Source: Croceicoccus pelagius
GTDB lineage: Bacteria; Pseudomonadota; Alphaproteobacteria; Sphingomonadales; Sphingomonadaceae
Assembly: GCF_001661915.1 (NCBI RefSeq)
Contig: NZ_LYWY01000033.1
Span: 1 to 64,000, forward strand
DNA length: 64,000 nucleotides
Reading direction: 5' to 3'
Positions 37,070 to 59,477 of this stretch are shown here, piece after piece. A program made the translations under genes and the position numbers. Under the pieces are notes generated by a model. It did not search any database. It was not told where the DNA came from and saw only the letters and a list, made by a program, of their open reading frames with translations. Numbering within the stretch: the stretch's first letter is position 1; each line of letters opens with the position of its first letter.

Positions 37070-38107
37070 ATGGGGCGCAGGCCGACCGGCAAGCCCACCA
37101 GTTTCGACATCGCATATGCGGCGGGGGTATCGCAGCCCACCGTCAGCCGCGCGCTGCGCGGGGACCTGTCGGTCAGCAAGGAAACACGCGAGAAGATAGA
37201 GCGGATCGCCCGCGACCTGAATTACACGGTCGACAAGAACGCCTCTTCCCTGCGCTCGCAGCGGTCGAACACGATCGCGTTGCTGTTCTTCGAGGATCCG
37301 ACGTCCGACGACAGCATGATCAACCCGTTCTTCCTCGCCATGCTGGGGTCGATCACGCGGGCCTGCGCGAACAGGGGGCTGGACCTGCTCATCTCGTTCC
37401 AGCGGCTGGAGGACGACTGGCACGTCCGGTACCAGGATTCGAACCGTGCCGACGGGCTGATCCTGCTGGGTTACGGCGACTACGACCTCTATCGCTCGCG
37501 CCTCGACAAGCTGGTCGAGCAGGGCACGCATTTCGCCCGCTGGGGATCGGTGCGCAGCGACGACAGCGGATCGACGATCGGCTCGGATAACCTCGGTGCA
37601 GGGCGGCTGGCGGGTGAGCACCTATTGTCCATCGGCCGCCGCAAGATCGCCTTCCTCGGCCATGCGACCAGCCGGTATCCCGAATTCGCCCACCGCTACG
37701 AAGGCTTGTGCGCCGCCATGCGCGACGCAGGCGTCGAGCCCGATCCCTCGCTGCAATACGACGCGCTGACCACCGAGGACGCAGGTTATCGCGCGGCGAG
37801 CGAGCTCTTGGCCTCGAAAAAATCCTTCGACGCGATCTTTGCCGCCAGCGATCTTATCGCCATCGGCGCAATGCGGGCGCTGGTCGGTGCGGGCCTGAAA
37901 ATCCCCGAGGACGTCGCAGTCATCGGCTTCGACAACATCCCCGCCGCCAGCCTGACGAGCCCGCCGCTCACCACCGTACAGCAGGACGTGGCGGGCGCTG
38001 GCGCAAGGCTGGTCGATACCCTGATGGCGCAGATCGCGCGCCGCGCCGGCCCTGATGTTCGCTTGCCGACACGGCTTATCGTGAGGGGCAGTACCGTCCC
38101 GCGCTAG
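37070..38107 (+). CDS. LacI-family regulator of the maltodextrin locus
   Basis: This 345-residue regulator has the LacI helix-turn-helix at about 9-55 ([20 protein letters not shown]) and a sugar-binding periplasmic-type domain ([40 protein letters not shown]). The ATG at 37070 is preferred because GGGAGGGAG precedes it; the open frame begins 75 bases earlier. It is divergent from the receptor operon and upstream of the transporter operon, so it probably controls both, with maltose or a related sugar as inducer. Confidence 0.92.
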
Positions 38108-38241
38108 GCCATGCACTGCGGTTGTGGTGCAGCGCGATACATTCGTATTCTTGTTGTGCGACCGGCGTGCGCCGTGTGACCTGACCCGACCCCACGCGGC
38201 GCGATGACAGCTGCGGGGCAACGGGAAAGGATCGTTCCGCG

Positions 38242-39756
38242 ATGGAAAAACCGCGGCAGGGCTTCTGGGGCCTGTGGAACATCAGCTTCGGATTCTTCGG
38301 CATCCAGGTCGGCTTCGCGCTGCAGAACGCGAACATGAGCCGCGTCTTCCAGACGCTGGGCGCCAGCAAGGACGATCTCCCCGCGCTCTGGGTCGCGGCA
38401 CCGCTGACGGGCCTTATCGTGCAGCCGATCATCGGGCACCTGTCGGACCGGACGTGGAACCGCCTTGGCCGCCGCCGCCCTTATTTCCTGACCGGTGCGG
38501 TACTGGCCGCTATCGCGCTGTTCCTCATGCCGCTCGCCCCTGCCATCGCTGCGCCGCTGGTCTTTGCCGCGGCCATGCTCTGGGTGCTCGATGCCAGCCT
38601 CAATATCTCGATGGAGCCGTTCCGCGCCTTCGTCGGCGATATGCTGCGCACCGACCAGCACGCGGCGGGCTATGCCGTGCAGACCGCATTCATCGGCGCG
38701 GGCGCGGTGCTGGGCTCGATCTTCCCCTGGCTGCTTGAACACATGGGTGTCGCCAACGTCGCGCCCGAAGGCGCGCTGCCCGATACGGTGCGCTATGCCT
38801 TCTGGTTCGGCGCTTTTGCCATCCTTGCGGCGGTTGTCTGGACGGTCGTCACCACGCGCGAATACAGCCCCGAGGAACAGGCCGCGTTCACCGGCCACGT
38901 CGAAGCGGACGACGCCGGAGAGATCACAGCGCGTCTGGCCGCGAAGAACCCGCTGGGCGGTATTGCGTGGATCGTCGCTGGCATCATCGTGGCGCTGGCG
39001 GTCGACATGCTGGGCCTGCAGAAGGAAGTGCTTCTCCTCGGAGCGCTGCTCGCGATTTACGGCGTACTCGAAATCGTCGCGATCCGCATGGCGCGGCAGG
39101 GCACGAAGCCCAACATGCTTTCCAGTATCGTCGGCGACTTTTCGGGTATGCCGCCGGTCATGAAGCGGCTCGCGCTCGTTCAGTTCTTCTCGTGGTCGGC
39201 GCTGTTCATCATGTGGATCAACACCACGCCTGTCGTCACGCAATATGTCTACGGCTCCACCGACACGGCCAGCGCCGCCTATAACGAAGGCGCGAACTGG
39301 GTGAGCGTGCTCTTCACGGTCTACAATGGGGTCGCGGCGATCGCTGCGCTGGTCCTTTTGCCGTGGCTGTCGCGCAAGTTCGGGCAGGTCCGCACGCACT
39401 CGATCTGTCTGACGCTGGGCGCGCTGGGCTTTCTCGGCTTTTTCTTCCTGCGTGATGCCAAAGCGCTGATCGTGTGCGAAATCGGGATCGGCATCTCCTG
39501 GGCCTCGATCCTGGCCATGCCCTATGCCATCCTCGCGTCGAACCTGCCGCAGGCGAAGCTTGGCATCTTCATGGGCCTGTTCAACATCTTCATCGTCGTG
39601 CCGCAGCTTCTGGTCGCGACCGTCATGGGCTCGATCATGCTGGCGTTCTTCCCCGGAGAGCCGGTCTGGACGATGCTTTTCGCCGCCGCCGCATGGGCCA
39701 TTGCCGCATTGGCGATGACCCGCGTTTCGGCCGCCATACCTGCGAGGAACGCGTGA
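38242..39756 (+). CDS. GPH-type MFS disaccharide transporter (maltose/sucrose-like)
   Basis: This 504-residue inner-membrane protein has about 12 helices and belongs to the glycoside-pentoside-hexuronide/SLC45-like MFS group. The first helix [20 protein letters not shown], the loop [20 protein letters not shown] and [12 protein letters not shown] are typical. In Caulobacter a homologous transporter, MalY, takes maltose across the inner membrane beside MalA. It would do the same here for di- or trisaccharides made in the periplasm. Its stop overlaps the next GTG start by 4 bases. Confidence 0.9.
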
Positions 39757-44204: not shown

Positions 44205-45593
44205 TTAGCCCTGACCCGGCGGGGTCGGGTGCTTTATGCCCGGAAGCATCGGCGCATCGCCGCGAAACCGCCAGCGCGAGGCCCAGCCCTGAAACCGCAC
44301 GTCCATCCAAACCTCGCGGATCGTCACACAGGACATCGCGATCGCGACCGCCTGGATCAGCAGCGGCCGGACGAACGGCCAGACAGTGAGGTAAGTCGCC
44401 GAAATGACCTGGCTGTCGCGGTAATAGGTGGTTCGCGTCAGTTCCATCATCTCCTCCAGCTTGATGTCCGCCGACAGGGCGAGGAGGTAGCATGCGCAGA
44501 TCGAGAAGATCCGCCCGAAGCCCTTCCACGGCTCCATCATGAGCAGCGCCATCATGAATACCGGCGTATAGCCGCCTGCCTCACTGGTGACGAGAGCGAT
44601 GAGGATGCCGAGAAGGTAGAGCCTGTAACGTGTGACGACTTCGGGCCGCAGCCACGCGGCGGCGAAGGCAACGAGCAGAAAGGCTTGCGTCACGCGAAGC
44701 AGCACGTCGATGAACAGGACCGTGTATTCGACCATACGCGAACCGATCAGCAAACCGATGGGGACTGTCGCATTCTCGTTCGTAAGGACCGAACGCAGGC
44801 CCTGGTACGTCGTGGCCGGCCAGAAATCGAGAATGTTCTCGAACTCCTTGTTCGACCAACTTGTGATGTTGCGCAGGATCTCGAACGGGGTGCCGCGGCC
44901 AAGGATCGCGAAGCTGACCAGATAGACCATCACGACGCCCAGCATCGCCCCTTCGACCCAGCGCCAGCGCCGCTTGAACAGCGGGGTGAGCAGCGGGGCG
45001 ATGAGATAGACCTTCAGGTTCACGGCCATGCCCGCAAAGAACCAGCGCCACTTCGTCGATTTGAGCAGAGGCATCGTCGCCAGCAGGAAGAACGGGAACG
45101 CCATCAGGATGAGGTTCCCGCGCTCGATCCCGTTAAGCAGCGGCCAGCCGAGGCCGACACAGATCGTACGCGGGATCGCGCGGCTCTTGTCCCACTTGCG
45201 CAGCGCCAAGTACATGATCACCACGCTGGCCAGCCAGAAGCCCCAGATGCCCGCAACCCCGAGCCAGTCGCAATCGCGCACCGCAAGGCCGGGGCTGGAT
45301 TCGTAGGCCCGTACGCGCGGATAGCACTGCTCCAGCCCGACTACCCGCAGCATCACGAAGGACAGTGGCGGGTAGAGCGTGGTCCAGACATCGTAGGTGC
45401 CCGGATCACGCGCCCAGTAGGCAGTGTTGAACCAGTCGGCGTAGATATCGCTGGGTTCGTAGAAATAGGGCGGCGGCAGGTAGTAGTACGTCAGCAGGTA
45501 CCAGATCGTGTAGATCACCGAGGCGACGACGCCTGCGGCAAACAGCCACTCGAACCCGCGCCCGCTTCGCCAGAAGTCGGCAGGAGGCTTCAC
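44205..45593 (-). CDS. polytopic glycosyltransferase, GT87 (DUF2029)-like
   Basis: This 462-residue membrane protein resembles GT87 mannosyltransferase-like enzymes (DUF2029). About 10 helices are visible. A first-loop DIYADWFNTAYWARDPGTYD and the motif LLNGIERGNLILMAFPFFLL agree with this family, whose RGN element is characteristic. The GTG start at 45593 overlaps the gtrA stop by 4 bases; the open frame further upstream is spurious. It probably transfers a polyprenyl-phosphate-linked sugar made by the GT2 protein. Confidence 0.82.
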   Translation of the reverse strand: MKPPADFWRSGRGFEWLFAAGVVASVIYTIWYLLTYYYLPPPYFYEPSDIYADWFNTAYWARDPGTYDVWTTLYPPLSFVMLRVVGLEQCYPRVRAYESSPGLAVRDCDWLGVAGIWGFWLASVVIMYLALRKWDKSRAIPRTICVGLGWPLLNGIERGNLILMAFPFFLLATMPLLKSTKWRWFFAGMAVNLKVYLIAPLLTPLFKRRWRWVEGAMLGVVMVYLVSFAILGRGTPFEILRNITSWSNKEFENILDFWPATTYQGLRSVLTNENATVPIGLLIGSRMVEYTVLFIDVLLRVTQAFLLVAFAAAWLRPEVVTRYRLYLLGILIALVTSEAGGYTPVFMMALLMMEPWKGFGRIFSICACYLLALSADIKLEEMMELTRTTYYRDSQVISATYLTVWPFVRPLLIQAVAIAMSCVTIREVWMDVRFQGWASRWRFRGDAPMLPGIKHPTPPGQG

Positions 45594-45982
45594 GCCGCTT
45601 CCTGCGCCGTGAACACGAACCGCTTCAGGACGAAATAATTGATGACCGATGCGATCAGCACCGTCAGCGCGCCCGCAAGGTACGGGGAATCGATGAACTG
45701 GTCGAAGCCCCACAGCACCGCGAGGTTCACGAGGTAATTAAGGCCGTAGGAGACGATGAAGTTGACCCGCGACGCTTTGTGCCCGGCAAAGGCATAGCGG
45801 CTGTAGGTGAAGTAGTTGAACGTCATGCCCATCACGTGGCTGACGATCTGTGCGACGAAGATGTTGAGACCCAGCCACACGAACAGCGCGAACAGGCCGT
45901 ACCCGAAGGCAGTGTTTACGATGCCTGCCTGATAGTACTTGAACAGGCGCTGCCATTCGCTTGCGGAACGCCAGTCAAACAC
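45590..45982 (-). CDS. GtrA-family small membrane protein (flippase-like)
   Basis: This 130-residue protein has four transmembrane helices. The GtrA fold is recognisable from FKYYQAGIVNTAFGYGLFAL at the N terminus, VSHVMGMTFNYFTYSRYAF in the middle, and a C-terminal INYFVLKRFVF. GtrA proteins are thought to flip bactoprenyl-phosphate-glucose across the inner membrane for O-antigen modification. It overlaps the GT2 gene by 8 bases and the GT87 gene by 4, forming a GtrB-GtrA-Gtr-like module. Confidence 0.9.
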   Translation of the reverse strand: MFDWRSASEWQRLFKYYQAGIVNTAFGYGLFALFVWLGLNIFVAQIVSHVMGMTFNYFTYSRYAFAGHKASRVNFIVSYGLNYLVNLAVLWGFDQFIDSPYLAGALTVLIASVINYFVLKRFVFTAQEAA

Positions 45983-46979
45983 CGGTCCCCGCTTTCTCGT
46001 ACTCCGGCGTGCTGGCCGTTCCCTTGTAGTCGGGGGGGAAGTTGACGCGTTCCTCCTCCAGCACCAGCGGCTGGTTGCGGGTCCGGTCGGAAATGAGCTT
46101 CACCTGCACGCCCAGAAGGCCGAGGAACAGGAAGAGCAGAGTGAACTGTCCCTCCAGCATCGCGGCGAAAAGCCACAGCTGCCACGACTGTCCGGCAAAG
46201 GCAGCCCAGACGGCACCCAGCATGCAGGCCGCGGTCAGAAGTCCGAACAGGAAGGCGACGTAGAGCGGCGCTCGAAGCAGGTTGCCCGAAGAACCGGCAA
46301 GCCCGTTGAGTGCGAAGTCTAGCAGCGTGAAGAAATTGTTCTTCGACCGGCCACCGGCGCGGGGCGGGCGGGCGAAAGGGATCTGTTCGATCTTGTAGCC
46401 GGTTTCGACCAGCAGGCCGCGGAAGAACGGCTCCGGCTCGTTCAACTGTTCGATCGCGCGCACGACCTTGGCGTCGTAGATGCCGAAGCCGGTCGCATTA
46501 GGAATGATCTGGTAGTCGCCGAAGCGGCGCTGCATTGCATAGGACATCGAGCGGACGGCAGAGAGGATCAGCCCGCTCTTCTCACGCTCGCGGATGCCCA
46601 GCACGATCGGCACGCCTGCACGCCAGCGGCGCACGAATTCGGGCAGCAGGTCGGGCGAATCCTGGAAATCGGCGCACATCGAGATCACGGCGCGGCCACC
46701 GGCTTCGTAGATGGCATGCGTAGGCGATCGCATCTGGCCGTAGTTGCGCGTATTCTTGATCAGCTTGATGCGCGGATCGCGGGCGCACATGCCTTTGACG
46801 ATTTCTACCGTCCGGTCACTAGACTCGTTGTCGATGAAGATGATGTCGAAGTCGGCCCCGACGCTCTCCATCTTTTCGCACACGGCGGCGGCGATCGCCT
46901 CGGCATTGGCCTCCTCGTTGCGGCAGGCAATGCAGACGGTGACTTCGGGGCGGCTCTTGAGCGGGAGGGTCATGTTCAC
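45975..46979 (-). CDS. GT2 polyprenyl-phosphate glycosyltransferase (GtrB/DPM1-like)
   Basis: This 334-residue glycosyltransferase has a GT-A domain (about 1-230: VTVCIACRNEEANAEAIAAA, FIDNESSDRTVEI, the DxD-like CADFQDSPDLL) and two C-terminal membrane helices. This is the layout of GtrB and dolichyl-phosphate mannose synthase-like enzymes, which load a sugar onto a lipid carrier. A GTG at 46979 overlaps the wzz-like stop; an ATG two codons later is an equally possible start. Confidence 0.9.
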   Translation of the reverse strand: MNMTLPLKSRPEVTVCIACRNEEANAEAIAAAVCEKMESVGADFDIIFIDNESSDRTVEIVKGMCARDPRIKLIKNTRNYGQMRSPTHAIYEAGGRAVISMCADFQDSPDLLPEFVRRWRAGVPIVLGIREREKSGLILSAVRSMSYAMQRRFGDYQIIPNATGFGIYDAKVVRAIEQLNEPEPFFRGLLVETGYKIEQIPFARPPRAGGRSKNNFFTLLDFALNGLAGSSGNLLRAPLYVAFLFGLLTAACMLGAVWAAFAGQSWQLWLFAAMLEGQFTLLFLFLGLLGVQVKLISDRTRNQPLVLEEERVNFPPDYKGTASTPEYEKAGTGV

Positions 46980-48103
46980 TCTGCCGGGCTCTCGACCATC
47001 TCGACGCGACGCGCGCGATCAAAGCGCGAGCCGACCGGCGGGCGCAGGCGATAGAATTCCATCGCCGCCCAGATCAGGATGAAAAGGACTGTCAGTGCCG
47101 CCGCGGGAAGCCAGATCTGGCGCGAGGTTTCGATGTGCGCATCCTCGAGGATACGGATGTTCGCTGCCGAGGTCAGGTCTTCCAGCATCGTACCGTCGAG
47201 GTAGTTGAGATAGCTGGAGTGCAGCGAGCGGGCCATTCCGAGTTCGCGTTCGAGCCGGAACAGTTCCGCCGTCACGCCGACAGCTTCACCGACCGATCCC
47301 GAGTTGCTGCGCGAATCCGCCGCCAGTGCCTGATTCAGCTGGGCCTGCAGCGCATCCCGTTCGGCCTTTAGCTGGATAACGGTGATGTGATTGTCGGTAT
47401 AGACACGGCGGGCCGTGTCGATGGCCGTCTGCTTGTCGCGCACCGCCTGCTGCAGGGCAGGGATGCGCATCGCGATGGATTCGACCGACACGGTCGGGTT
47501 GGCATAGCCGTGCTTGAGGCGGAAATCGTTGTACGCGGCTTCTGCGGAAACGAGGCGTTCGCCCGCTTCCTCAACCAGCGTTTCAAGCACTTCACGCTTG
47601 TACTTGGTCTGCCGGATGGTGATTTCTGACAGGCGCTCGCGGGTCGCTGCTGCATAGGCGCCGACGATGTCGCGGGCGAGGTCCGCGTCGCGGTCCTCCA
47701 TCTCGATCAAAATGATCCCTCCGCGCAGCGAACGGACAGTGACCTTGCGTTCGAGCCAGCGGTGCAGGTCGAGGTCGGGTTCGTCGAGACGGTTCTCGAG
47801 GTCGAGATCCGCGATCACCTTTTCGCGCGTCGAACGGCTGGTGCCCACGCGCAGCGCGATCTCGACGTCGGCCTGCTTGCCGAAAACCGAATTGATTGCG
47901 CCAAGCTGACCCAGCGTGCCCGACAGGCCCAGCGTTTCCGGGTCGGTCGGGGTCAGCGAGGTCGAGGCGTGGAAGCGTTCGGGGAAGAAGCTCAGCACCC
48001 CGAAGATCAGGACCAGCGGCAGGAAGATCGCGGCACGGCGCCAAGCCTTGTCGAAGATCTTCATGTGGGTCACCTGACCCACGATGGACATGCGCGGCAG
48101 CAT
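46976..48103 (-). CDS. Wzz/KpsE-like chain-length or export co-polymerase
   Basis: This 375-residue protein has one N-terminal helix (about 27-44), a long periplasmic alpha-helical region (about 150-280) and a C-terminal helix (about 325-345). This is the Wzz/polysaccharide co-polymerase layout. No tyrosine-kinase domain is fused. It pairs with the Wza-like gene directly upstream and probably sets polymer length or gates export. Met14 (48064) is an alternative start. Confidence 0.85.
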   Translation of the reverse strand: MLPRMSIVGQVTHMKIFDKAWRRAAIFLPLVLIFGVLSFFPERFHASTSLTPTDPETLGLSGTLGQLGAINSVFGKQADVEIALRVGTSRSTREKVIADLDLENRLDEPDLDLHRWLERKVTVRSLRGGIILIEMEDRDADLARDIVGAYAAATRERLSEITIRQTKYKREVLETLVEEAGERLVSAEAAYNDFRLKHGYANPTVSVESIAMRIPALQQAVRDKQTAIDTARRVYTDNHITVIQLKAERDALQAQLNQALAADSRSNSGSVGEAVGVTAELFRLERELGMARSLHSSYLNYLDGTMLEDLTSAANIRILEDAHIETSRQIWLPAAALTVLFILIWAAMEFYRLRPPVGSRFDRARRVEMVESPAE

Positions 48104-50004
48104 CAGTCTATCGCCGCCACGGTCGCCGCAGCGATGCCGAACTGGAAGATGATCGAGCTGATCTGGCCGATCTTGGTCAGCAGGTCCTTCGAGCTGGTCT
48201 TGACCGGGACGAAGATCACATCGCCGGGCAGGGCTTCTTCACCCATGGCGCCGGACGAGCGGGGCAAGACCTCGCCGTTGGCGCGCACAACGAAAAGCCT
48301 GCGCTTGTCGGCTGCGCGGACCGGGCCGCCTGCCTGCGAGAGGTATTCCTTCACCTTTTTCGGATCGTCGGCGATCATGTAGGAAGCGGGACGATAGACC
48401 GCGCCGAACACGCCGACGCTGCTGGGCACGGGCGGAACATAGACGCGGTCGCCGTTCTCGAGAGGGAGGTCGGGCAGCGACGTTGCTGTCGGCTCGATCT
48501 CGAGGACGAGACGGCCGTCGGGTTCTGCCTCGCGCATTTTTTCGAGAAACAGGCGGGCGCCTTCGTTCTGTGCCGCGAGACGGTCCGCGCTGATGCTGGA
48601 ATCGGCGGTCAGCGGGGCAGAAGCCAGCGTCATTTCGAACTGGTCGATCGCGTCGTCGAAGTTCTTGCGCTGCTGTGCCGCAACCGAATTGCGGTTGAGT
48701 TCGGTGCCGAAGGGGAAGGCCCGGCTCGTCATGCCGCCGGCAAGCGCGATAACCGAGGAAAGGCTTGCGCCCGGCTCGACGTAGTAGTTTCCGGGTTTCT
48801 CGACCTCGCCCTCGATCTTCACGAAGACGCGCTGCGAGGCGGTGGGCTGCACGAGGTTCTTTTCGGACAGGACCTGAATGATGTCGGCAGGGCGCGCCTT
48901 CATCGTCGCGGCGTCGCGAATGACGACTTCCATCGGGCCGGGGCGCGCACCGTCGGCAACGCGGTAAAGGACGAGACGTTCGGCATCGCCGAGCTGCGTC
49001 GTACCACCGGCAATCGCCAGCACGTCAGCCAGCGATTCGGTCCCGCGCAGTTCGTAGATTGCCTCTGCCGTCACGCTGCCGAAGACGGCAACCTGCGGGC
49101 CTGCGGGCGGAATGAACAGGACGTCCTCGTTCTGCAGCACCGCGTCGTTCACGCGGCTACCGCCCAAAAGCAGTTCGTAAAGGTCGAAGTCGGCCACTTC
49201 CTGCCCGTTGCGGATAAGCTTCACCGAACGCATCGAACCGTTGGGATTGGGGCCGCCGGCTTGGAGGATCGCATTTGCGACAGTCGACAAAGAGCCGACC
49301 GAGAATGCGCCGGGGCTGCGCGCAAAGCCGGTCACATAAACGCGGATGCCGCGCAGTTCGGCAACGCGGACGCCGTAGCGGAAATTGCGGTACTGGGTGC
49401 CGATGGCACGGTCGAGCACGTCGCCAAGGTCGCCGCTCCGCACACCGGCGAGGTGGATCTGGCCGACTGCGGGAAGGAAGATGTTGCCGTTGGCATCGAT
49501 CGTACGCTCGGTGCTGCCCTCGACCGAACCGGCGAGCGAGATCGACACGACGTCACCGACGTTGAGGCGGTAGTCGGGCGGAACCGTCGCGGTTGCGGGC
49601 GCGGCGAAATTGCGGCTTTCGGGCAGGAGCAGGTCGGCGCCGTAACGCGGCAGCGGACGGCCGATCACGCGCTCGACATACTTTTCGAACTCGCCGGGCT
49701 CTGGCGGTTCGGTCAGGCGCTTGCTCTGGTCGAGAAGATCTTCCTGCGCCTCGAGGAAACGCTGGAGCTGCGTGCTTTCGTCGTTGCCGACTTCCTGGAT
49801 CGAGGTTGCGCCGTAGATGTTGGACTGCGGCGTGGAGAAGCCGGGCGAACCGCTCTGCGATTCTCCTTGCTGCTGTTCCTCTTCCTGATTGGTGCCCGTC
49901 TGTCCGGGAATCAGCTGCGCCATGGCCGGTGCAGCGCCGGCAACGCAGAACGCGGCCAGCAAGGTGAACAGGATGCTCCTGAACCGGAAGCGGCTAAACC
50001 TCAT
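48103..50004 (-). CDS. Wza-like polysaccharide export protein with SLBB domains
   Basis: This 633-residue exported protein has a signal peptide ending near AMAQ. An acidic Gln/Glu-rich linker (about 38-60) is followed by the polysaccharide-export domain (DYRLNVGDVVSISLAGSVEG, about 144-163) and several SLBB repeats (VYVTGFARSPGAFSVGSLS; VFVKIEGEVEKPGNYYVEPG; VGVFGAVYRPASYMI). It should form the outer-membrane exit pore for the surface polymer. It lacks a lipobox Cys, unlike classical Wza. The 137 bases upstream hold no gene and may contain a secondary promoter. Confidence 0.88.
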   Translation of the reverse strand: MRFSRFRFRSILFTLLAAFCVAGAAPAMAQLIPGQTGTNQEEEQQQGESQSGSPGFSTPQSNIYGATSIQEVGNDESTQLQRFLEAQEDLLDQSKRLTEPPEPGEFEKYVERVIGRPLPRYGADLLLPESRNFAAPATATVPPDYRLNVGDVVSISLAGSVEGSTERTIDANGNIFLPAVGQIHLAGVRSGDLGDVLDRAIGTQYRNFRYGVRVAELRGIRVYVTGFARSPGAFSVGSLSTVANAILQAGGPNPNGSMRSVKLIRNGQEVADFDLYELLLGGSRVNDAVLQNEDVLFIPPAGPQVAVFGSVTAEAIYELRGTESLADVLAIAGGTTQLGDAERLVLYRVADGARPGPMEVVIRDAATMKARPADIIQVLSEKNLVQPTASQRVFVKIEGEVEKPGNYYVEPGASLSSVIALAGGMTSRAFPFGTELNRNSVAAQQRKNFDDAIDQFEMTLASAPLTADSSISADRLAAQNEGARLFLEKMREAEPDGRLVLEIEPTATSLPDLPLENGDRVYVPPVPSSVGVFGAVYRPASYMIADDPKKVKEYLSQAGGPVRAADKRRLFVVRANGEVLPRSSGAMGEEALPGDVIFVPVKTSSKDLLTKIGQISSIIFQFGIAAATVAAID

Positions 50005-50141: not shown

Positions 50142-51128
50142 TCACGCGATTTGCCGCATGAGCGTAACGGCGGTCTGTGCCGCCTGTTCGCCCATGGGGG
50201 TCGAAGTGATGGAGTGTCGTGCCAGCAGCGCATCGTACGCTGACGGATCGGACGTGTAGATGTTGGGCCTGCCTTCGCCGATGGCGGCCCGCTCGACACT
50301 GCCGCCGAGCCTGTTCGCCACCGCTTCGGCGACGTCCGCCAGTTCCATCGCGGTGCCGCCGCTGTCGATGAGCAGCGAGGGTGGACCTTCGCTCATCAAT
50401 TCGGCCAGCGCCAGCGATGTGACCTCGCGCACGGGGACGAAACTGCGCTCCACCCGAATCGGCGCGCGCACTTCGATCGGGCGGTCGGCCAGCGCGTCGA
50501 TGACGAAGCTCGCCAGTGCGTAAGTCTCGTGCTTGTTGATGAAGGGACCGGAGAGGGCATAAATACGCATGACCAGCGACCGGCGGCCCGGTGCGCTTTC
50601 GGCCCAGGCGCCAAAGGCCTGTTCGTCATCGCGCTTGAGCGAGCCGTAGAGCCTGAGGTCGTGCGCTGCATCGGGATCGTCGGCAAAGGCCGCTGCGCCC
50701 GAGGATGCCACGAAGATCCGGTCCGCGCCGATTGAACCGAGCGCATCCAGAACTTTGCCCGAAAGCGAGCGGTTGGCAGTGACGTATGCTTCCTCGCTCA
50801 TCCCGCCGACCTTGTCCTTGGTCAGGAAGGCGAGATGGAAGAGGATCGTCGGCTTCGTTTCGAGATCGGCGAGACTGTCCAGCGGCTGTTGCACGATGCC
50901 GTGATCGCCGAAGCGCACTTCGCGTTCGGAACTGCCGAAACAGGCGATACGCGCCCGCGCCGCCTCTTCGCCAAGGGCATCGAACAACCCTGCCAGAAGC
51001 GCGCGGCCGATCCAGCCGCTTGCGCCCACGATGACGATGCGCCGGTCGTCGCGGCGCAAGGCGTCGCACGCGGCAGGCGCCAGGGCGACCGCCTCGGCAA
51101 GGCGGGGAAGGGCAGCAGCCCGGGCCAA
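50142..51128 (-). CDS. NAD(P)-dependent sugar epimerase/reductase (extended SDR)
   Basis: This product of about 328 residues is an extended short-chain dehydrogenase. The Rossmann motif is VIVGASGWIGRALLAGLF (about 34-51), with SSGAAAF and the catalytic Tyr-Lys as YGSLK further on. No ATG is available near the start; TTG at 51128, 2 bases after the ThDP gene stop, fits best, and a CTG at 51134 is possible. By position it could reduce or epimerise the nucleotide sugar made by the upstream genes, like YerF in CDP-yersiniose synthesis. That comparison is inference. Confidence 0.82.
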   Translation of the reverse strand: MARAAALPRLAEAVALAPAACDALRRDDRRIVIVGASGWIGRALLAGLFDALGEEAARARIACFGSSEREVRFGDHGIVQQPLDSLADLETKPTILFHLAFLTKDKVGGMSEEAYVTANRSLSGKVLDALGSIGADRIFVASSGAAAFADDPDAAHDLRLYGSLKRDDEQAFGAWAESAPGRRSLVMRIYALSGPFINKHETYALASFVIDALADRPIEVRAPIRVERSFVPVREVTSLALAELMSEGPPSLLIDSGGTAMELADVAEAVANRLGGSVERAAIGEGRPNIYTSDPSAYDALLARHSITSTPMGEQAAQTAVTLMRQIA

Positions 51129-51130
51129 GT

Positions 51131-52912
51131 TCAGGCTTCCACGTCCTTCGTCGCGAGGTAGTCGATCTCGGGACTCATGCGGTCGATCGGGTTCGATTCC
51201 ATCGATCCGCTGGCCGTGATGCGGCTGCTGATCTTGGGCAGGTAGGTCTGTTCCGGATCGACAGGCACGATGAAGGCCTGCACGCCCGGCGTTGCCATGC
51301 GCTTCAGCACTTCCTCGTCTTTCGTGAAGTCGAGCGGAAGCGTCATGACCGGGATGTCCCAGGCCGCGAACAGCTTCGACCACTGCGGCAGGCCGAGGCC
51401 CGAACGCGTGTCGCAGCCGAGGTACTTGCCGTCGAAGTAGTTGCGCTGGGTCATGCGGATCGAGGCGTGGCCCTGATCGTGGAAGATGAAGATCTTCAGA
51501 TCGAGGTCGTTGATCGCCGCGGTGCCCAGTTCCTGCATGTTCTGGGCAAAGCCGCCGTCGCCCTCGATGAGGATCGTGCGGCGTCCACCAAGATGATCGC
51601 GCCCGGCAACCGCCGCGCCGACCGCACCCGACAGGCCATAGCCCATCGAGGCGAGCGACTTGTTGGTCAGCATCCGCTGGCCCAGCTTCTGCTTGTACAG
51701 CTGCATCGAGAGCGTGAACGCGCTCCCGCTCGAGCAGGGGATGATGAGATCATCGGGCGTAGTCAGCGTTTCGAGCGCGACGATGAAGTCATAGGGCGAG
51801 AGATAACCCTCGCCGGTATTGTTCACCGGCTCAACGCGGGGGACGGCGCGGCGGATCGCCTGAGCCTCTTCGAGCCAGTCATCCTTGCGGGGCAGTTCGT
51901 GGCTGACGAACTGGGCAAGGAAGTCGTTGGCGTCGTAGGGCAGGCCGATATCTACGCGCGGGTGGCCCTTCTGCAGTTCCTGCGGGTCGATCTCGACCTG
52001 CACGATCTTGGCGTCGCGGCCGAATTCCTGCCAATTGAAGCCGGTCTGCTGCATGCCGAGGCGGGTGCCGACCGCGATGATCAGGTCGGATTTCTGGATT
52101 GCGATGTTCGAGCTGCGCTGGCCCCAGGTGTTCGGGCGGCCGAGATAGTTCGGAGCATCGCCGTCGAACCGGTCGGCCCCGTTGTAGGTCGTCATGACCG
52201 GGATGCCGAGTTCCTCGATCCGGGCGCGCAGGGTGTTCGCGGTCGTCTGGTCGACGCCGCCGCCGACGAGCAGCACCGGACGTTTCGCGCGGGCGTAAAG
52301 CCCGGCGACTTCGCGGATCTCGTCCTCGTCCGCGATGGGAAGGACGGGCGCACCGAATTCGGGAAGTATGCTTTCCTCGACCGTTGCTGCCTGCACGTCG
52401 AGCGGCAGTTCGAGGAAGACCGGACCCTTGCGCGGGGTCCAGCTGGGCGAAATGAGGTCGAGGAATTCCTGCGCGCTCACCGGTGCATCGAGGCGGCGGG
52501 AAACCTTGGTGGTCGATTCCAGCAGGGCAACGCCGTCGATTTCCTGGATGCCGCGTGAACGGACCTGCCCGCGGGCAAGGTCGGCGGTCTTCACCTGACC
52601 GCCGATCACCAGCAGTTCGCGACTTTCCAGCCACGCCCCGCTGACGGCAGTAACGATATTGGTAAGGCCCGGGCCCGCCGTGACGAGCGCCAGCGCCTTT
52701 GCGGGTGCCGCGATCTCGTTGAAGTATTCAGCGCCGATGCCGGCCGCGACTTCGTGCACGACGGGAACGCCCGTCAGATAGCGGTCGAGGCTTTCGGTGA
52801 GGTGCATGATGTTGCCCCCGCCGACATAGAAGTAGTGCGTATATCCGGCTGCCTTCAGCCATGCACCCATCTGGTCGCTATACTTGATCCCGCCGTTGTC
52901 AGGCTTTTTCAT
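51131..52912 (-). CDS. thiamine-diphosphate enzyme, acetolactate synthase-like
   Basis: This 593-residue protein has the three-domain layout of ThDP/acetolactate synthase-type enzymes. The cofactor-activating Glu lies in VVHEVAAGIGAEY (Glu54). The central domain (about 195-340) is followed by the ThDP motif GDGGFAQN at 451. The usual Asn-Asn that closes this motif is replaced by His-Asp (IFIFHDQGHAS, about 478). In Yersinia, the related YerE adds a two-carbon unit from pyruvate to CDP-3,6-dideoxy-4-ketohexose. rfbFGH nearby would supply such a substrate. The ATG at 52912 overlaps the HAD gene by 14 bases. Confidence 0.85.
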   Translation of the reverse strand: MKKPDNGGIKYSDQMGAWLKAAGYTHYFYVGGGNIMHLTESLDRYLTGVPVVHEVAAGIGAEYFNEIAAPAKALALVTAGPGLTNIVTAVSGAWLESRELLVIGGQVKTADLARGQVRSRGIQEIDGVALLESTTKVSRRLDAPVSAQEFLDLISPSWTPRKGPVFLELPLDVQAATVEESILPEFGAPVLPIADEDEIREVAGLYARAKRPVLLVGGGVDQTTANTLRARIEELGIPVMTTYNGADRFDGDAPNYLGRPNTWGQRSSNIAIQKSDLIIAVGTRLGMQQTGFNWQEFGRDAKIVQVEIDPQELQKGHPRVDIGLPYDANDFLAQFVSHELPRKDDWLEEAQAIRRAVPRVEPVNNTGEGYLSPYDFIVALETLTTPDDLIIPCSSGSAFTLSMQLYKQKLGQRMLTNKSLASMGYGLSGAVGAAVAGRDHLGGRRTILIEGDGGFAQNMQELGTAAINDLDLKIFIFHDQGHASIRMTQRNYFDGKYLGCDTRSGLGLPQWSKLFAAWDIPVMTLPLDFTKDEEVLKRMATPGVQAFIVPVDPEQTYLPKISSRITASGSMESNPIDRMSPEIDYLATKDVEA

Positions 52913-53612
52913 CGTGCTTCTCCTTCGTGAGGGCAAGCAATGAGGTGAAGATCGTCATGACCTGGTTCGCGGTGAGCGAGCCGGGCGTGTTGTCGTCGTA
53001 TCCCCAGTCGGCGTGAAGCGGAAGGTGGACTTGCCCTTCGAAGGGTTCGAGGTGGCTGTTCATGTCGTCGAGATAGACGACGATGTAGCGGCCCTTCTCG
53101 CACCAGCCCTGGCTTTGCGCGACGGCAAGCTTGCTGCCGTGCATGCGGATGTCTTCCTGCCCGAACACGGGGACCACGTCGGCATCGTGGAAGGCCAGCG
53201 CCTCGCGGATCGATTTGACGTTGCGGGTCGAGAGGATCGCGAACTTGTCGCGGTTCTCGACGAGCAGAGGCTTCAGGCGAAGGAAGAAGTCGTAGACCGG
53301 CATGACCTTGGGCCATTCGGGATCGGCCATGATTTCCTCGCGCGCGGCAAAGAACGCCTTGGCGAAGTCCCAGTCCTCGTCGATCGGTTTGATCATCGGG
53401 ACGGCGGCAGGCTGGGTATAGCGGGTGACGCTATAAAGACGGTTGTACTGCCAGGCGTCGGTGACGACTTTCCGGAATTCCAGAAACTCCTCGTACTCGA
53501 TGTCCTGGCGGAAACCTTCCCGCCCCTTGGTGCATTTCTCGGCGACCGAGTAGGCCTCGTAGGCGCTGTTGAAGAGCACCCCGTCGAAATCGAGTACGAA
53601 TTTGACGTCCAT
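52899..53612 (-). CDS. HAD-superfamily hydrolase-like protein of the sugar cassette
   Basis: This 237-residue protein has HAD motif I as LDFDGVLFNS (Asp8 and Asp10), motif II as ILSTRNV (about 128), a Lys in GSKLAVA (about 161), and an acidic pair VVYLDDMNSH for motif IV. A phosphatase role is therefore likely, but the substrate is unknown. It sits between the aldolase-like gene (3 bases upstream) and the ThDP gene (overlapping). The three may act in succession on a phosphorylated intermediate. Confidence 0.8.
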   Translation of the reverse strand: MDVKFVLDFDGVLFNSAYEAYSVAEKCTKGREGFRQDIEYEEFLEFRKVVTDAWQYNRLYSVTRYTQPAAVPMIKPIDEDWDFAKAFFAAREEIMADPEWPKVMPVYDFFLRLKPLLVENRDKFAILSTRNVKSIREALAFHDADVVPVFGQEDIRMHGSKLAVAQSQGWCEKGRYIVVYLDDMNSHLEPFEGQVHLPLHADWGYDDNTPGSLTANQVMTIFTSLLALTKEKHDEKA

Positions 53613-53615
53613 GGA

Positions 53616-54317
53616 TCAGAGCCTTTCCCTGAGTGCCTTGGCGCGTTCCTGCGCAGCGCGCGAGATTGCGCCGTGATGGGCTTCCTGCATGTCCAGAAGT
53701 GCGACCTCGACCGCAAAAGCATCGGCCAGCGCGCCTTCGTCGAGGAACTTGTCGACGGGCATGACGCACTTGCGCGTCTCGACACAGGCGACGAGCGAAC
53801 GAAGCTCGTCGTCGGCCAGAAGGGTTTCGCGCGTCTCGCGGTTCACCGAACCGCCCATCGTGGTTTTGAGGCCACGCTTGAGCGCAGCGCGGGCGACGGT
53901 CTTCACCATCGCGATCGTTTCGTCGCAGTTGACCCCGTTGCCGCCGAAGCTGGCGGTTAGGTCGGTGCGTCCGACGGTCACTTCGGTCAGCTTGGTGCCG
54001 GCGTCGAGCAGTTCCTCGATGCGTTCGACCGCATTCTTCGTTTCCACCGTGACGCCGACGTGGTCGAATGCGCCGTTGGGCAGCATGTCCATATACTTCG
54101 ACATGGCAAAGCCGCTTTCGATCATCGGCGCGACGACCGAGCGAATGCCGAGCATTTGCAGGAAGCGGATGTCGGATTTCGCCTCGCAACCGCCGATCTT
54201 TATCAGGTACGGCAGGTTGTTTCGCAGTGCGAAGGCAAACTCCGCAGCGACGGTATCACGCGATAGTCCCTCGGCCTCGAACTCTCCCTTCAGGCCGACG
54301 ATTCTCGATAGATCCAT
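53616..54317 (-). CDS. HpcH/HpaI/CitE-type aldolase-like protein
   Basis: This 233-residue TIM-barrel protein resembles the HpcH/HpaI aldolase and citrate lyase beta family. The metal-binding Glu region is VTVETKNAVERIEELL and the Asp is in VGRTDLTASFGG; an Arg-like N-terminal segment is less clear. Family members cleave or form C-C bonds using pyruvate, acetyl-CoA or oxaloacetate. The start has AGGGAAAC upstream. Within a CDP-sugar cluster its job is unknown; it might make or remove a carbon branch or supply a keto acid to the ThDP enzyme. Confidence 0.78.
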   Translation of the reverse strand: MDLSRIVGLKGEFEAEGLSRDTVAAEFAFALRNNLPYLIKIGGCEAKSDIRFLQMLGIRSVVAPMIESGFAMSKYMDMLPNGAFDHVGVTVETKNAVERIEELLDAGTKLTEVTVGRTDLTASFGGNGVNCDETIAMVKTVARAALKRGLKTTMGGSVNRETRETLLADDELRSLVACVETRKCVMPVDKFLDEGALADAFAVEVALLDMQEAHHGAISRAAQERAKALRERL

Positions 54318-54363
54318 GTTTCCCTCGTCTTTTCTTTTCTTGTTGGCGACCCTGAAACGACCG

Positions 54364-55725
54364 TCAGGAACGGTTGCCCGCGACGAACCCGTGGATCGTC
54401 TCGGAAACGTAGTTGAGGTGTGCCTCGGTCAGACCGGGGTAGAGACCGATCCAGAAGCAACGCTCGGTAACTGCGTCGGCATTGGTCAACTCACCAACGA
54501 CGCGATAGTTGCGATCCTTCATGTAAGGCTGGCGCAGAAGGTTGCCGCCGAACAGCAGGCGCGTGCCGATCTTCTTGTCGTTGAGGAACTTCACGAGGTC
54601 GTCGCGGCTGAAGCCCACGTCCTCGCGCAGCGTGATCGGGAAACCGAACCAGCTCGGCTCGCTGTTGGGCGTGGCCTTGGGCAGGATCATCACGTCCTCT
54701 AAGTCGCTGAGCATTTCGGTCAGCAGCGCGAAGTTGCGTGAACGGTCGGCGATGAACCCGTCGAGGCGGCCGAGCTGGGCAAGGCCGACGGCGGCCTGCA
54801 TGTCGGTGATCTTCAGGTTATAGCCGCAGTGGCTGTAGGTGTACTTGTGGTCGTAGCCGAAGGGCAGCGAACCGAGGCGGCGTCCGAAGCGTTTGCCGCA
54901 CGTGTTATCCTCGCCCGGCGCGCACCAGCAGTCGCGGCCCCAGTCGCGGAACGATTCCATGACGCGCTTGAGGCGCGGCTTGTTGGTGAAGACCGCGCCG
55001 CCTTCGCCCATCGTGATGTGGTGGGCGGGGTAGAAGCTGAGCGTGCCGAGGTCGCCGAAGGTGCCGACGCTCTGCCCGTTGTACGTCGCGCCGAGCGCGT
55101 CGCAGCAGTCTTCGACCACCCACAGGTTGTGCTTTTCAGCCACGCGCATGACTTCGCCGAGATCGAACGGGTTGCCGAGCGTGTGCGCGATCATGATCGC
55201 GCGCGTCTTGTCGGTGACGGCGGCCTCGATCATCTCGGGCTTGATGTTGTAAGTCGGGATATCGACGTCGACGAAGACCGGAACCGCGCCGAACTGCAGC
55301 GCCGGATTCACCGTGGTGGGGAAGCCGGTAGCGACGGTGATGACTTCATCGCCGGGCTTCAGCGCTTCGCTGCGGTGATAGTGCGAGGTCAGCGTCTGGA
55401 AAGCGACGAGGTTCGCCGACGAGCCCGAGTTCACCGTGATCGCATGCTCGACACCGATGCGAGCGGCAAGCTTTGCCTCGAACTCGGTGTTGAAGCGGCC
55501 GGTGGTCAGCCAGAAGTCGAGGCAGCTTTCGGCCAGCAGCTGCATGTCGGTATCGCCGTAGACCTTGCCCGAAACCGGCACCGGGCTCTCGCCGGGGACG
55601 AATTCCTTGGGTGCGTGGAAGTTGCGCGCATACTGGCCGACGAGATCGACGATCAGGTTGCGGAACTCGGGTTCGGAGAGGTCGCCGGGAACCTGCCGCG
55701 GATCGATTGCGGGTTTGTCGTTCAT
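54364..55725 (-). CDS. rfbH: CDP-4-keto-6-deoxyglucose 3-dehydrase (E1, RfbH/DdhC)
   Basis: This 453-residue PMP- and [2Fe-2S]-dependent dehydrase removes the C3 hydroxyl from CDP-4-keto-6-deoxyglucose. The usual PLP lysine is replaced by His in [14 protein letters not shown] (His235/236). The iron-sulfur cysteines follow the E1 pattern exactly: Cys208, 57 residues, Cys266, one residue, Cys268, seven residues, Cys276. The ATG at 55725 lies 7 bases after rfbG. It needs a reductase partner (E3/DdhD), which I do not find in the window. Confidence 0.95.
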
Positions 55726-55732
55726 CGGAAAA

Positions 55733-56809
55733 TTAGGCTCCCTGGAGGGCACGCTCCATGCGTGCACGGTATTGTGTGAGTTGTTCGGATGTAATTGCGC
55801 GGGCATCGCCGCCGTCGGCGACCGATCGGTGCCATGCGACGATCCAGCGGATGGTTTCGGCAAGGCCGAGGGCGGGCTGCCAGCCCAGTTTCGCACGGGC
55901 CTTGGAACAGTCGAGCCGCAGGAGGTTCGCCTCGTGCGGTTTGGGGCCGTCGTCGAGATCGAAGCCGCCTTCGCCCCATTCGTTGATCATCTTCTCGACG
56001 ATCCAGCCGACGGGCTGTGTATCGCTGTCGGCCGGACCGAAGTTCCAGCCGTCGGCATAGTCGCGCTCGCCCTTGGCAAGACGCTGCGCGATCAAAAGGT
56101 AGCCGCCAAGCGCCTCCAGAACGTGCTGCCACGGGCGGACCGCGTGGGGCGAGCGGATCTGGACGCGTTCGCCTGCGACCATGGCGCGCACGATGTCGGG
56201 AATCAGCCGGTCGACCGCCCAGTCGCCGCCGCCGATGACGTTACCGGCGCGGACCGAGGCGAGCAGGGGCGCGCCCTCTCCCTCGAAGAAGGAGCGGCGG
56301 TAGGATGCAATGGCGATTTCGGCCGCGCCCTTCGACGAACTGTAAGGATCGTGACCGCCCATCGGGTCGCTTTCGCGGTAGGGCCAGATCCATTCGCGGT
56401 TCTCGTAGCACTTGTCGCTCGTCACGCAGACGATGGCATCTAGCGAGGCCGCGCGGCGACACGCGTCGAGCACGTGGACCGTGCCCTGCACGTTCGTCGC
56501 GTAAGTGCCGACCGGATCGTCGTAGGACGTGCGTACGATCGGCTGTGCGGCGAGATGGAAGACGACTTGCGGGTCGCAGGCGGCCATCGCCGCATCGACT
56601 GCGTCAAGATCCCGAATGTCGCCTTCGATATGCGTGACGAGATTCGCGATGCCTGCTTGATTGAACAGGCTAACGTCCTCTGCCGGAAGAGCGAAGCCGG
56701 TAACTTCGGCCCCCATCTCAACCAGCCAGAGCGCGAGCCATGACCCCTTGAAACCGGTGTGACCGGTGAGGAAGACCCTGCGGCCTTCCCAGAAGTCCGG
56801 GTTTACCAA
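55733..56809 (-). CDS. rfbG: CDP-glucose 4,6-dehydratase
   Basis: This 358-residue extended SDR converts CDP-glucose to CDP-4-keto-6-deoxyglucose. The opening [20 protein letters not shown] is typical, with the catalytic Tyr-Lys in [11 protein letters not shown] and [20 protein letters not shown] later. No ATG exists near the start. TTG at 56809 overlaps the rfbF stop (TTGGTAA) and gives the length of Salmonella RfbG; TTG at 56815 or 56836 are alternatives. The start is the only weak point. Confidence 0.93.
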
Positions 56810-57570
56810 GTTTTCCAAGGAGCACCCTTTTCCCAAAGTTCTTCGAGATGCAGCTTGTCGCGCAGCGTGTCCATCGGCTGCCAGAAGCCCTTGTGATGGT
56901 AGCCGTGCAGTTCACCGTCGTTGGCAAGGGCTTCCATCGGCTCACGCTCCCAGATCGAGGAAGGCCCGTCGATGTAATCGATCACCGAGGGATCGAGCAC
57001 AAAGAAGCCGCCGTTGATGAGACCGCCGTCACCAGCCGGCTTTTCGCGGAAGCCGCTGACCCGGTCGCCATCGAATTCCAGCGCGCCGAAGCGGCCCGGA
57101 GGGGCAACCGCGGTGACAGTGCCCTTGCCGCCGTGCGACTTGTGGAAGTTTACCAGCGCGGTCACGTCGATGTCGGCAACGCCGTCGCCGTAGGTGAAGC
57201 AGAAGGCCTCGCCTTCATCGAGGTAGGAGCGAACGGCCTTGAGGCGGCCGCCGGTCATCGTCTCGGGTCCGGTTTCGACCAGCGTGATGCGCCAGCCCTC
57301 GTTCCAGTTGCGATGCACTTCCATCTTGTTTTCCGCCAGATCGATCGTGACGTCGGCGGTGTGGAGGAAGTAGTTCGCGAAATACTCCTTGATCAGGTAG
57401 CCCTTGTAGCCAAGGCAGATCACGAAGTCTTTGATACCATGCGAAGAATAGATCTTCATGATGTGCCAGAGAATCGGCATCCCGCCGACTTCGACCATCG
57501 GTTTGGGGCGAACGGAAGTTTCTTCACCGAGCCTCGTGCCGAGGCCACCTGCCAGAATTACTGCTTTCAA
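56803..57570 (-). CDS. rfbF: glucose-1-phosphate cytidylyltransferase
   Basis: This 255-residue nucleotidyltransferase makes CDP-glucose from CTP and glucose 1-phosphate, the first step toward 3,6-dideoxyhexoses. The signature AVILAGGLGTRLGEETSVRP is at about 4-23, followed by KPMVEVGGMPILWHI and FTYGDGVADIDV. The TTG start at 57570 (GAGAG upstream) gives the normal length; the frame extends 17 codons further without a better start. It is the first gene of the minus-strand polysaccharide cluster. Confidence 0.94.
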   Translation of the reverse strand: MKAVILAGGLGTRLGEETSVRPKPMVEVGGMPILWHIMKIYSSHGIKDFVICLGYKGYLIKEYFANYFLHTADVTIDLAENKMEVHRNWNEGWRITLVETGPETMTGGRLKAVRSYLDEGEAFCFTYGDGVADIDVTALVNFHKSHGGKGTVTAVAPPGRFGALEFDGDRVSGFREKPAGDGGLINGGFFVLDPSVIDYIDGPSSIWEREPMEALANDGELHGYHHKGFWQPMDTLRDKLHLEELWEKGAPWKTW

Positions 57571-58511: not shown

Positions 58512-58889
58512 TTACTTGAGCTCGACGGTGCCGCCAGCTGCTTCGATCTTGCCCTTGATCTCTTCGGCTTCTGCCTTGTTGACGCCTTCCTTGACGGCCT
58601 TCGGCGCACCTTCGACGAGAGCCTTGGCATCGGCGAGGCCCAGGCCGGTGATGGCGCGGACTTCCTTGATGACCTGGATCTTCTTGCCACCGTCGCCGGT
58701 GAGGATCACGTCGAATTCGTCCTTTTCTTCAGCGGCGGCAGCGCCGTCGCCACCACCAGCAGGTGCGGCAACAGCAACAGCAGCGGCAGCCGAAACGCCC
58801 CATGCTTCTTCAAGGGCAGTTGCAAGTTCAGCGGCTTCGAGAACGGTCAGCTGCGACAGTTCTTCGACGATCTTCTGGATATCAGCCAT
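58512..58889 (-). CDS. rplL: 50S ribosomal protein L7/L12
   Basis: This 125-residue stalk protein recruits and activates translation GTPases. The N-terminal dimerisation domain (1-35, [20 protein letters not shown]), Ala/Gly-rich hinge (36-54) and C-terminal domain ([36 protein letters not shown]) are complete. It lies 72 bases after rplJ in the usual order and ends before a strong terminator. Confidence 0.98.
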
Positions 58890-58961
58890 TTGTATTCACT
58901 CCTAAGTTCATGCCCGGCGCGGCTGAAATTGCCTGTCCGCCGGCAAATCGCTTGAAACGTC

Positions 58962-59477
58962 TTATGCAGCGTCCTTGGCGGCGTATGCGCCGAAGACACG
59001 GGCAAGCTTCGCAGCCGGGGCAGTCGACAGCTGGGCGATCTTCGTCGCCGGTGCGTTGACAAGACCAACCAGCTTGGCGCGCAGTTCGTCGAGCGAGGGC
59101 ATAGAGGCGAGCGCCTTCACACCATCGGCATCGAGCACCTGCGAACCCATCGAACCGCCAACGACCTCGAGCTTGTCGGTGGTCTTGGCGAAGTCGATGA
59201 CGACCTTTGCCGCCGCAACCGGATCGACCGAAGTCGCCAGCGCGGTGGGGCCGGTCAGGAAATCGTCGATACCGGCATAGTCGGTGTCCACGATTGCCCG
59301 CTTGGCAAGACGGTTCTTCGCAACCTTGTAAGTCGCACCAGCGTCACGCATCTTCGAGCGCAGCTCGGTCGACTGGGCGACCGAGAGGCCGAGGTTGCGG
59401 GTGACAACCACCACGCCGACCTCGTTGAAGGTTGCGTTGAGCTCTGCGACCGCGTCGGCTTTTTGCGAACGATCCAT
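58962..59477 (-). CDS. rplJ: 50S ribosomal protein L10
   Basis: This 171-residue protein anchors the L7/L12 stalk to 23S rRNA. The N-terminal rRNA-binding domain (about 1-100, with [20 protein letters not shown] and [12 protein letters not shown]) and the C-terminal L12-binding helices are present. The ATG at 59477 follows AGGAG. It has no rplKA genes upstream: the nearest upstream genes are an XRE/DUF2975 module, and a terminator separates them. Confidence 0.98.

Follow-up and report, generated by a model that had tools for sequence, protein, structure and literature searches.

A putative aldolase/HAD donor module in a CDP-3,6-dideoxyhexose cluster of Croceicoccus pelagius, with a long-branched sugar as its predicted product

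What sugar is made by a cytidine diphosphate (CDP)-dideoxysugar cluster that carries an aldolase-like gene and a HAD-type gene amid its sugar genes? The question is raised by the first 64 kb of contig NZ_LYWY01000033.1 of Croceicoccus pelagius (GCF_001661915.1; this whole stretch is referred to as the window), in which seven open frames on the minus strand, within positions 50142-57570, are arranged in the order rfbF, rfbG, rfbH, aldolase (P0001), HAD protein (P0002), thiamine diphosphate (ThDP)-dependent enzyme (P0003) and short-chain dehydrogenase/reductase (SDR) (Table 1). An earlier reading of the sequence, the original prediction, had named the three rfb genes, and each of them does score far above the corresponding NCBI equivalog cut-off (TIGR02623, TIGR02622 and NF011936). 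It had also described the remaining genes as following almost without gaps, in agreement with the spacings found: 46 bp between rfbH and the aldolase gene, 3 bp between the aldolase and HAD genes, a 14-bp overlap (-14 bp) between the HAD and ThDP genes, and 2 bp between the ThDP and SDR genes. The cluster probably makes a CDP-activated 3,6-dideoxyhexose with a long polyhydroxyalkyl branch on C4, built by way of an aldolase/HAD donor module. The comparisons below suggest that the two extra genes, aldolase and HAD, make the donor, and the sugar predicted from them is not yersiniose but a 4-C sugar with a long branch, of the caryophyllose/erwiniose class.

Judged by its sequence, P0003 is a YerE-like ThDP carboligase. 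Its three TPP_enzyme domains (N, M and C) all score above the Pfam cut-offs, and it contains HEVAAG and EGDGGF, which we take to be the catalytic Glu and the GDG motif of ThDP enzymes. The nearest solved structure is 8rph (E = 8.4e-78), with the acetolactate synthase 5ahk behind it (E = 2.6e-57); 8rph is identified in passages of PMC12188165 as JanthE, a YerE-like enzyme for which the coupling of 2-oxo acids with ketones is described. In one relative of the cassette, one TGA was counted inside the ThDP match (G751:C6:112282-114021).

As modelled, P0001 has the fold and the metal-ligand Glu and Asp of the HpcH/HpaI (class II) pyruvate aldolases. The model shows the TIM-barrel fold of that family, and the aldolases that it matches among the top 1000 of Foldseek bear PDB titles of pyruvate aldolases. 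Residues E92 and D119, presumably the metal-binding Glu and Asp of HpcH/HpaI aldolases, are invariant in 36 sequences and, when aligned, fall on the ET and GxxD stretches of HpcH aldolases of known structure. On its own, P0001 has no Pfam or NCBIfam match at 0.001 and does not reach the PF03328 cut-off; that family is matched at E ≤ 1 by 24 of the 25 members of the aldolase set (A2), and a distant relative (L069) scores 28.9 bits against a cut-off of 25. P0002 likewise matches neither Pfam nor NCBIfam at 0.001. The positions D8xD10, S128/T129, K161 and D182-D183, which we take to be the four HAD motifs (DxD, S/T, K and DD), are invariant in seven sequences, and one of the seven members of the HAD set (A4) matches Pfam HAD_2 (E = 0.00021). 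The labels "HpcH-type" and "HAD" given in the original prediction are therefore upheld by relatives, motifs and a model, and not by a family match of either protein alone. When the 21 genomes holding the aldolase or the ThDP enzyme were searched with a P0002 profile, the six that carry the four-gene cassette, and that had also served to build the profile, gave exactly one match each, and the other 15 gave none. A seventh relative, 29% identical, adjoins an aldolase in a Desulfurellaceae metagenome-assembled genome (MAG; L106). Not every HAD protein is a phosphatase.

The aldolase and the ThDP enzyme travel together well beyond this genome. In a sample of 396 genomes of the order, the aldolase was found in 17 and the ThDP enzyme in 18, with 15 genomes common to both; the latter count applies a threshold of E ≤ 1e-75, so that any less closely related ThDP enzyme in a genome lacking the aldolase falls outside it. 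A ThDP enzyme lies near the aldolase in all 17 aldolase genomes, the enzyme in G607 (L063) and G671 (L059) being a more distant one below the threshold. All 18 ThDP genomes carry a gene for a 3-deoxy-ulosonate-forming enzyme, 15 having the aldolase and three (G661, G513 and G490) a NeuB-family gene in the aldolase slot of a largely syntenic locus (PF03102, E = 9.6e-34, 2.6e-34 and 3.7e-37). In these three a phosphoglycolate-phosphatase-type HAD gene follows the ThDP gene, and in G513 rfbF is set apart. The NeuB family is another maker of 3-deoxy-2-ulosonic acids, using phosphoenolpyruvate (PEP) and an aldose. Since a NeuB-family synthase can take the place of the aldolase, the latter is likely to make a 3-deoxy-2-ulosonic acid, and since it nearly always occurs with the YerE-like ligase, it is likely to make the donor of that ligase.

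The contiguous cassette aldolase-HAD-ThDP-SDR was found in six of six loci carrying the aldolase of the window or one at least 58% identical to it (the window, L020 and L051-L054). Their aldolases form a single clade (SH-aLRT 100), and rfbH lies within the examined stretch in all but L052. A wide scan of named genomes gave at least 468 places encoding aldolase relatives, of which the best 80, a ranked and not a random selection, were analysed. By their titles these 80 come from Magnetococcales, Patescibacteria, Chlorobiaceae, Lentisphaerae, Elusimicrobia, Bacteroidetes, Cyanobacteria, Myxococcales and others, and they lie mostly in sugar clusters; a ThDP enzyme is found within 10 kb of the aldolase in 69, and several of the other 11 are short contigs. 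In total, 111 loci apart from the window (L018-L027 and L051-L151) were scanned and 103 kept, after removal of L027 (no aldolase open reading frame, ORF), L068-L070 (duplicates of L072-L074) and L018, L022, L024 and L026 (outside sugar clusters, with no ThDP enzyme near). A ThDP enzyme lies within 10 kb in 90 of the 103, and among these 90 a CDP-sugar gene is present within 12 kb in 73 and rfbH in 57. The recurrence of the four genes in other genomes, which the original prediction had proposed as its check, is thus seen in every locus with a window-type aldolase; of the 103 loci kept, 90 have the wider aldolase-ThDP pair.

In wider samples the aldolase was found in 9 of 385 genomes of the class sample, two of these matches being weak (2.4e-4 and 9.9e-4) and without sugar genes, in 7 of 349 genomes of the phylum sample at E ≤ 1e-10, including the window's own genome, and in three of 326 genomes from the phylum of an Actinomycetota MAG, the MAG itself included. 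Searched against phages, the aldolase had no match, and against plasmids it returned only Ilyobacter polytropus (in a catabolic setting by annotation) together with two records of Novosphingobium humi; no plasmid matched the ThDP enzyme at 1e-60. One N. humi plasmid (NZ_CP103869.1; L019, 10037-12747) carries the order rfbF-rfbG-aldolase-wza, with no ThDP enzyme within the 24.6 kb examined. Three cyanobacterial aldolase relatives also have no ThDP enzyme nearby (L101, 10001-10780; L146, 10001-10771; L120, 9908-10693), and in L101 and L146 a NagD-like HAD gene follows.

A phosphate-removing candidate accompanies the pair in 76 of the 90 aldolase-ThDP loci: a HAD alone in 37, a protein resembling the dehydroquinate (DHQ) synthase AroB alone in 32, an inositol-monophosphatase-like protein in six, and both HAD and AroB-like proteins in one (L130), with none found in 14. 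HAD and AroB-like genes were counted within 6 kb and inositol-monophosphatase-like genes within 3 kb. The HADs were identified by a motif pattern, which was matched by 45 of the 2,492 ORFs that had a suitable length; 44 of these 45 are listed as lying no more than 6 kb from an aldolase, and 32 of 40 pattern HADs, duplicates and L092 being left out, match PF00702. In L092 the pattern fell on a spurious frame, and tblastn gives a NagD-like HAD elsewhere in that locus. Within the window's taxonomic order, the gene arrangement aldolase-ThDP-HAD, with a different HAD, is seen in L060, L062, L063, L065 and L066. An inositol-monophosphatase-like gene lies beside the aldolase in L055-L059 and L061 (PF00459, E = 1.8e-42 for L058), L064 having neither that gene nor a HAD. 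An AroB-like gene together with a small SDR stands in place of the phosphatase in L021, L023, L025, L067 and 35 of the best 80 loci. Relatives of all three partner types remove or eliminate phosphate. HAD and AroB-like genes avoid each other across the 90 loci (Fisher p = 1.5e-9, kinship ignored), and the best aldolase tree calls for 18 or more switches of partner among HAD, AroB-like and inositol-phosphatase-like. This is a quick tree built from 107 aldolases, 86 of them labelled with a partner, and 33 of its 104 inner branches are well supported. In a stricter independent-pairs test nearly all informative pairs agree in direction, the test being too small for significance (median p = 0.0625). 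Because the aldolase mostly lies beside one of several unrelated phosphate-removing enzymes, it is likely to make a phosphorylated product that needs to lose its phosphate.

These observations can be assembled into a proposed pathway. RfbF, RfbG and RfbH would provide CDP-4-keto-3,6-dideoxyglucose by the route established for their families, RfbH presumably being the enzyme that supplies the CDP-4-keto-3,6-dideoxyhexose. The HpcH-type aldolase would add the enolate of pyruvate to a phosphorylated aldehyde to give a 3-deoxy-2-ulosonic acid phosphate, from which the HAD protein would remove the phosphate. By analogy with YerE, ErwE and JanthE, the ThDP enzyme would then decarboxylate the free 3-deoxy-2-ulosonic acid and transfer the acyl chain to the C4 ketone, forming a tertiary alcohol, and the SDR would reduce the new ketone adjoining C4. 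The resulting branch would be CH(OH)-CH2-(CHOH)n-CH2OH, its CH2OH end being expected from the presence of a HAD in the window. KdsA with KdsC (Kdo-8-P synthase and phosphatase) offers a parallel, in that a 3-deoxy-ulosonate phosphate is made and then dephosphorylated by a HAD; KdsA, however, belongs to another synthase family, and no kdsA match was found in the window's genome.

The length of the branch would depend on the aldehyde acceptor, for which D-erythrose 4-phosphate is our best guess. The natural substrate of DHQ synthase is a seven-carbon 3-deoxy-ulosonate 7-phosphate. Of 38 long AroB-like ORFs, 26 were aligned; each of them matches the two DHQ-synthase domains, and the alignment has 51 invariant columns, including Glu, His, Lys and Arg residues that we take to be the DHQ-synthase active site. 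Retention of these positions suggests a seven-carbon 3-deoxy-ulosonate 7-phosphate and, with it, an erythrose 4-phosphate acceptor. A seven-carbon acid that loses CO2 would leave a six-carbon acyl chain, the branch length of caryophyllose, so that the sugar of the window would be a terminally hydroxylated relative of caryophyllose. Passages on caryophyllose from Pseudomonas caryophylli and Mycobacterium marinum (MMAR_2332) describe a six-carbon 4-C branch with CH2 at its second carbon (PMC5706390, PMC9026286), the branch being 1,3,4,5-tetrahydroxyhexyl (PMC5706390) with a D-erythro end (PMC9026286). The CH2 stands where the methyl of pyruvate would be, fitting the 3-deoxy-ulosonate donor proposed here, and the D-erythro end fits an erythrose 4-phosphate acceptor. 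Unlike the branch predicted for the window, that of caryophyllose ends in CH3, which would suit the variant with an AroB-like gene and SDR better than the one with a HAD. Other possible acceptors are glyceraldehyde 3-phosphate, for a branch of five carbons, and a pentose phosphate, for one of seven. Arabinose 5-phosphate, giving a donor of the 3-deoxy-D-manno-octulosonic acid (Kdo) type, was considered and is disfavoured for the window; its attraction lies in the aldolase relatives of L022 (9932-10726) and L024 (10209-11003), which stand alone directly after genes that by look resemble waaA and lpxK, with no ThDP enzyme near. A kdsA gene is present in the L022 and L024 genomes, and two of seven genomes, the window's own and G039, have no kdsA match. 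The arabinose 5-phosphate isomerase model TIGR00393 scores above its cut-off in three of eight genomes (G250, G020 and G751, with G597 just under), the window's own not being among them.

Sugars of this class, and ThDP enzymes of this kind, are already known. The original prediction had guessed at a branched or chain-extended sugar, which the co-occurrence of the cassette supports for a chemistry that is itself predicted, and had suggested that the product may be one not yet described. The gastriose branch has seven carbons and a CH2OH end. "Not yet described" can hold at most for the exact product, since long-branched sugars (caryophyllose, erwiniose and gastriose) and YerE-like enzymes appear in passages of PMC12247030. 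According to the same passages, ErwE of the erwiniose pathway (Pectobacterium atrosepticum) joins a hydroxylated 2-oxo acid to CDP-4-keto-3,6-dideoxyglucose, the in vitro evidence coming from a ketone analogue; pyruvate is not used by ErwE, which favours 4-hydroxy-2-oxo acids, the donors named there being, unlike those proposed here, short hydroxy-oxo acids (PMC12247030). MygE, the gastriose enzyme of Mycobacterium gastri, is described as taking C3 to C8 2-oxo acids with benzaldehyde, but without ketone activity in vitro (PMC12247030). A limit on the proposed pathway lies in the statements there that several long-branch enzymes (MygE, RhopE and SpirE) have so far not accepted ketones in vitro and that MMAR_2332 has not yet been assayed on them (PMC12247030). 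Among the best 80 of at least 468 loci, no producer of caryophyllose, erwiniose or gastriose was found, as judged by titles.

The cluster could also be read as a plain CDP-yersiniose pathway, in which the ThDP enzyme uses pyruvate to add a two-carbon branch and the two extra genes, aldolase and HAD, have some other role within the operon. The known pathway (RfbF/G/H, YerE and YerF) has the same set of rfbF, rfbG, rfbH, YerE-like enzyme and SDR in one cluster, but here an aldolase and a HAD are placed inside the operon before the ThDP gene and recur with it, so that, if their predicted donor use is right, separate donor-making genes are present which yersiniose does not need. An aldolase or NeuB-family gene accompanies the ThDP enzyme in all 18 genomes of the order sample that have it at E ≤ 1e-75, and the aldolase lies close to it in 69 of the best 80 named loci, which makes a yersiniose pathway highly improbable, even though YerE itself prefers pyruvate and is restricted to pyruvate and 2-oxobutyrate as donors in passages of PMC12247030.

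The order of reactions is a separate matter, since it is not fixed by the order of genes in the operon: the ThDP enzyme might transfer a chain that is still phosphorylated, with the HAD or AroB-like enzyme acting afterwards on the CDP-sugar. The AroB-like proteins keep K213 and R227, which we take to be the residues holding the substrate carboxylate in DHQ synthase, and that carboxylate would already be lost after decarboxylation. We therefore regard action after transfer as unlikely, while noting that an AroB-like enzyme working at that stage could close a ring, as in the carbocyclic caryose (structure given in passages of PMC9026286). Placing the aldolase downstream, to extend or remodel an acetyl branch added by the ThDP enzyme, draws on gene clustering and nothing more specific. 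Judging from PDB titles, the aldolases matched by P0001 act on pyruvate, and the NeuB family uses PEP and an aldose; neither suits a CDP-bound acetyl branch, and this arrangement seems scarcely credible. A donor made by the aldolase and HAD before transfer is our preferred explanation.

The genes downstream of the cassette, in the order wza-like, wzz-like, family 2 glycosyltransferase, GtrA-like and GT87-like, are largely conserved in the other cassette genomes (Table 1), and their position suggests that the sugar enters a polysaccharide exported by these wza/wzz/glycosyltransferase genes. Ribosomal protein genes resembling rplL and rplJ (58512-59477) precede the sugar operon on its own strand, upstream of rfbF. 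Elsewhere in the window, frames that by look resemble cobalamin synthesis genes occupy 14400-20060, and an apparent glycan-uptake cluster, also named by look, with tryptophan-halogenase-like, amylase-like, LacI-like and transporter-like frames lies at 25392-39756.

Table 1. Genes of the sugar cluster and its neighbours in the window, and examples of replacement genes in other loci (positions prefixed by L are those of the locus named).
Feature	Coordinates	Strand	Basis or remark
rfbF, glucose-1-phosphate cytidylyltransferase	56803..57570	-	TIGR02623, 440.5 bits (cut-off 300.25); start codon TTG
rfbG, CDP-glucose 4,6-dehydratase	55733..56836	-	TIGR02622, 477.9 bits (cut-off 278.45); ORF limits, true start possibly further in
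rfbH, CDP-6-deoxy-4-keto-glucose 3-dehydratase	54364..55725	-	NF011936, 725 bits (cut-off 423)
HpcH/HpaI-fold pyruvate aldolase (as modelled), P0001, 233 aa	53616..54317	-	relatives, metal ligands, model
Proposed HAD-superfamily phosphatase, P0002, 237 aa	52899..53612	-	HAD motifs in relatives
YerE-like ThDP-dependent carboligase, P0003, 593 aa	51131..52912	-	TPP_enzyme N, M and C domains
NAD-dependent epimerase/dehydratase-type SDR, proposed ketone reductase	50142..51128	-	PF01370, E = 6.1e-11; start TTG at 51128 assumed
Wza-like polysaccharide export protein	48103..50004	-	Poly_export and SLBB domains; tblastn match beside cassette in 4 of 5 other cassette loci, not L053
Wzz-like chain-length protein	46976..48103	-	named by position and look; tblastn synteny in 4 of 5 other cassette loci
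Family 2 glycosyltransferase	45975..46979	-	PF00535, E = 7.4e-20
GtrA-like membrane protein	45590..45982	-	named by look; tblastn synteny in 5 of 5 other cassette loci
GT87-like membrane glycosyltransferase	44205..45713	-	PF09594, 26.3 bits (cut-off 25)
NeuB-family synthase between SDR and ThDP gene	L173 4714-5844; L174 11792-12931; L175 8480-9598		three genomes of the window's family
AroB-like gene (examples)	L117 11506-12570; L112 11504-12433		

Taken more broadly, the genes may represent a plug-in donor module shared across many phyla, consisting of a 3-deoxy-ulosonate maker (HpcH-fold aldolase or NeuB-type synthase), an interchangeable phosphate remover and a YerE-like ligase, in which the phosphate step sets the end of the branch: CH2OH with a phosphatase, and CH3, the end found in caryophyllose, by oxidation and elimination with an AroB-like enzyme and its partner SDR. 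We put this generalisation forward tentatively, as somewhat less than an even prospect; if true, it would give the dehydroquinate synthase fold a new job, without ring closure. No proposal of such a module was found among titles and the opening lines of abstracts in the literature on caryophyllose, yersiniose, erwiniose, gastriose and other 4-C-branched sugars, a search that key papers lay outside, so that one may be in print. The published passages name the ThDP enzymes of the long-branched sugars and not the source of their unusual 2-oxo acids. The module makes that source testable and would allow the length and end group of a branch to be predicted from genes. With at least 468 places encoding relatives of the aldolase, many new surface sugars, and enzymes forming chiral tertiary alcohols, may be found in this way.

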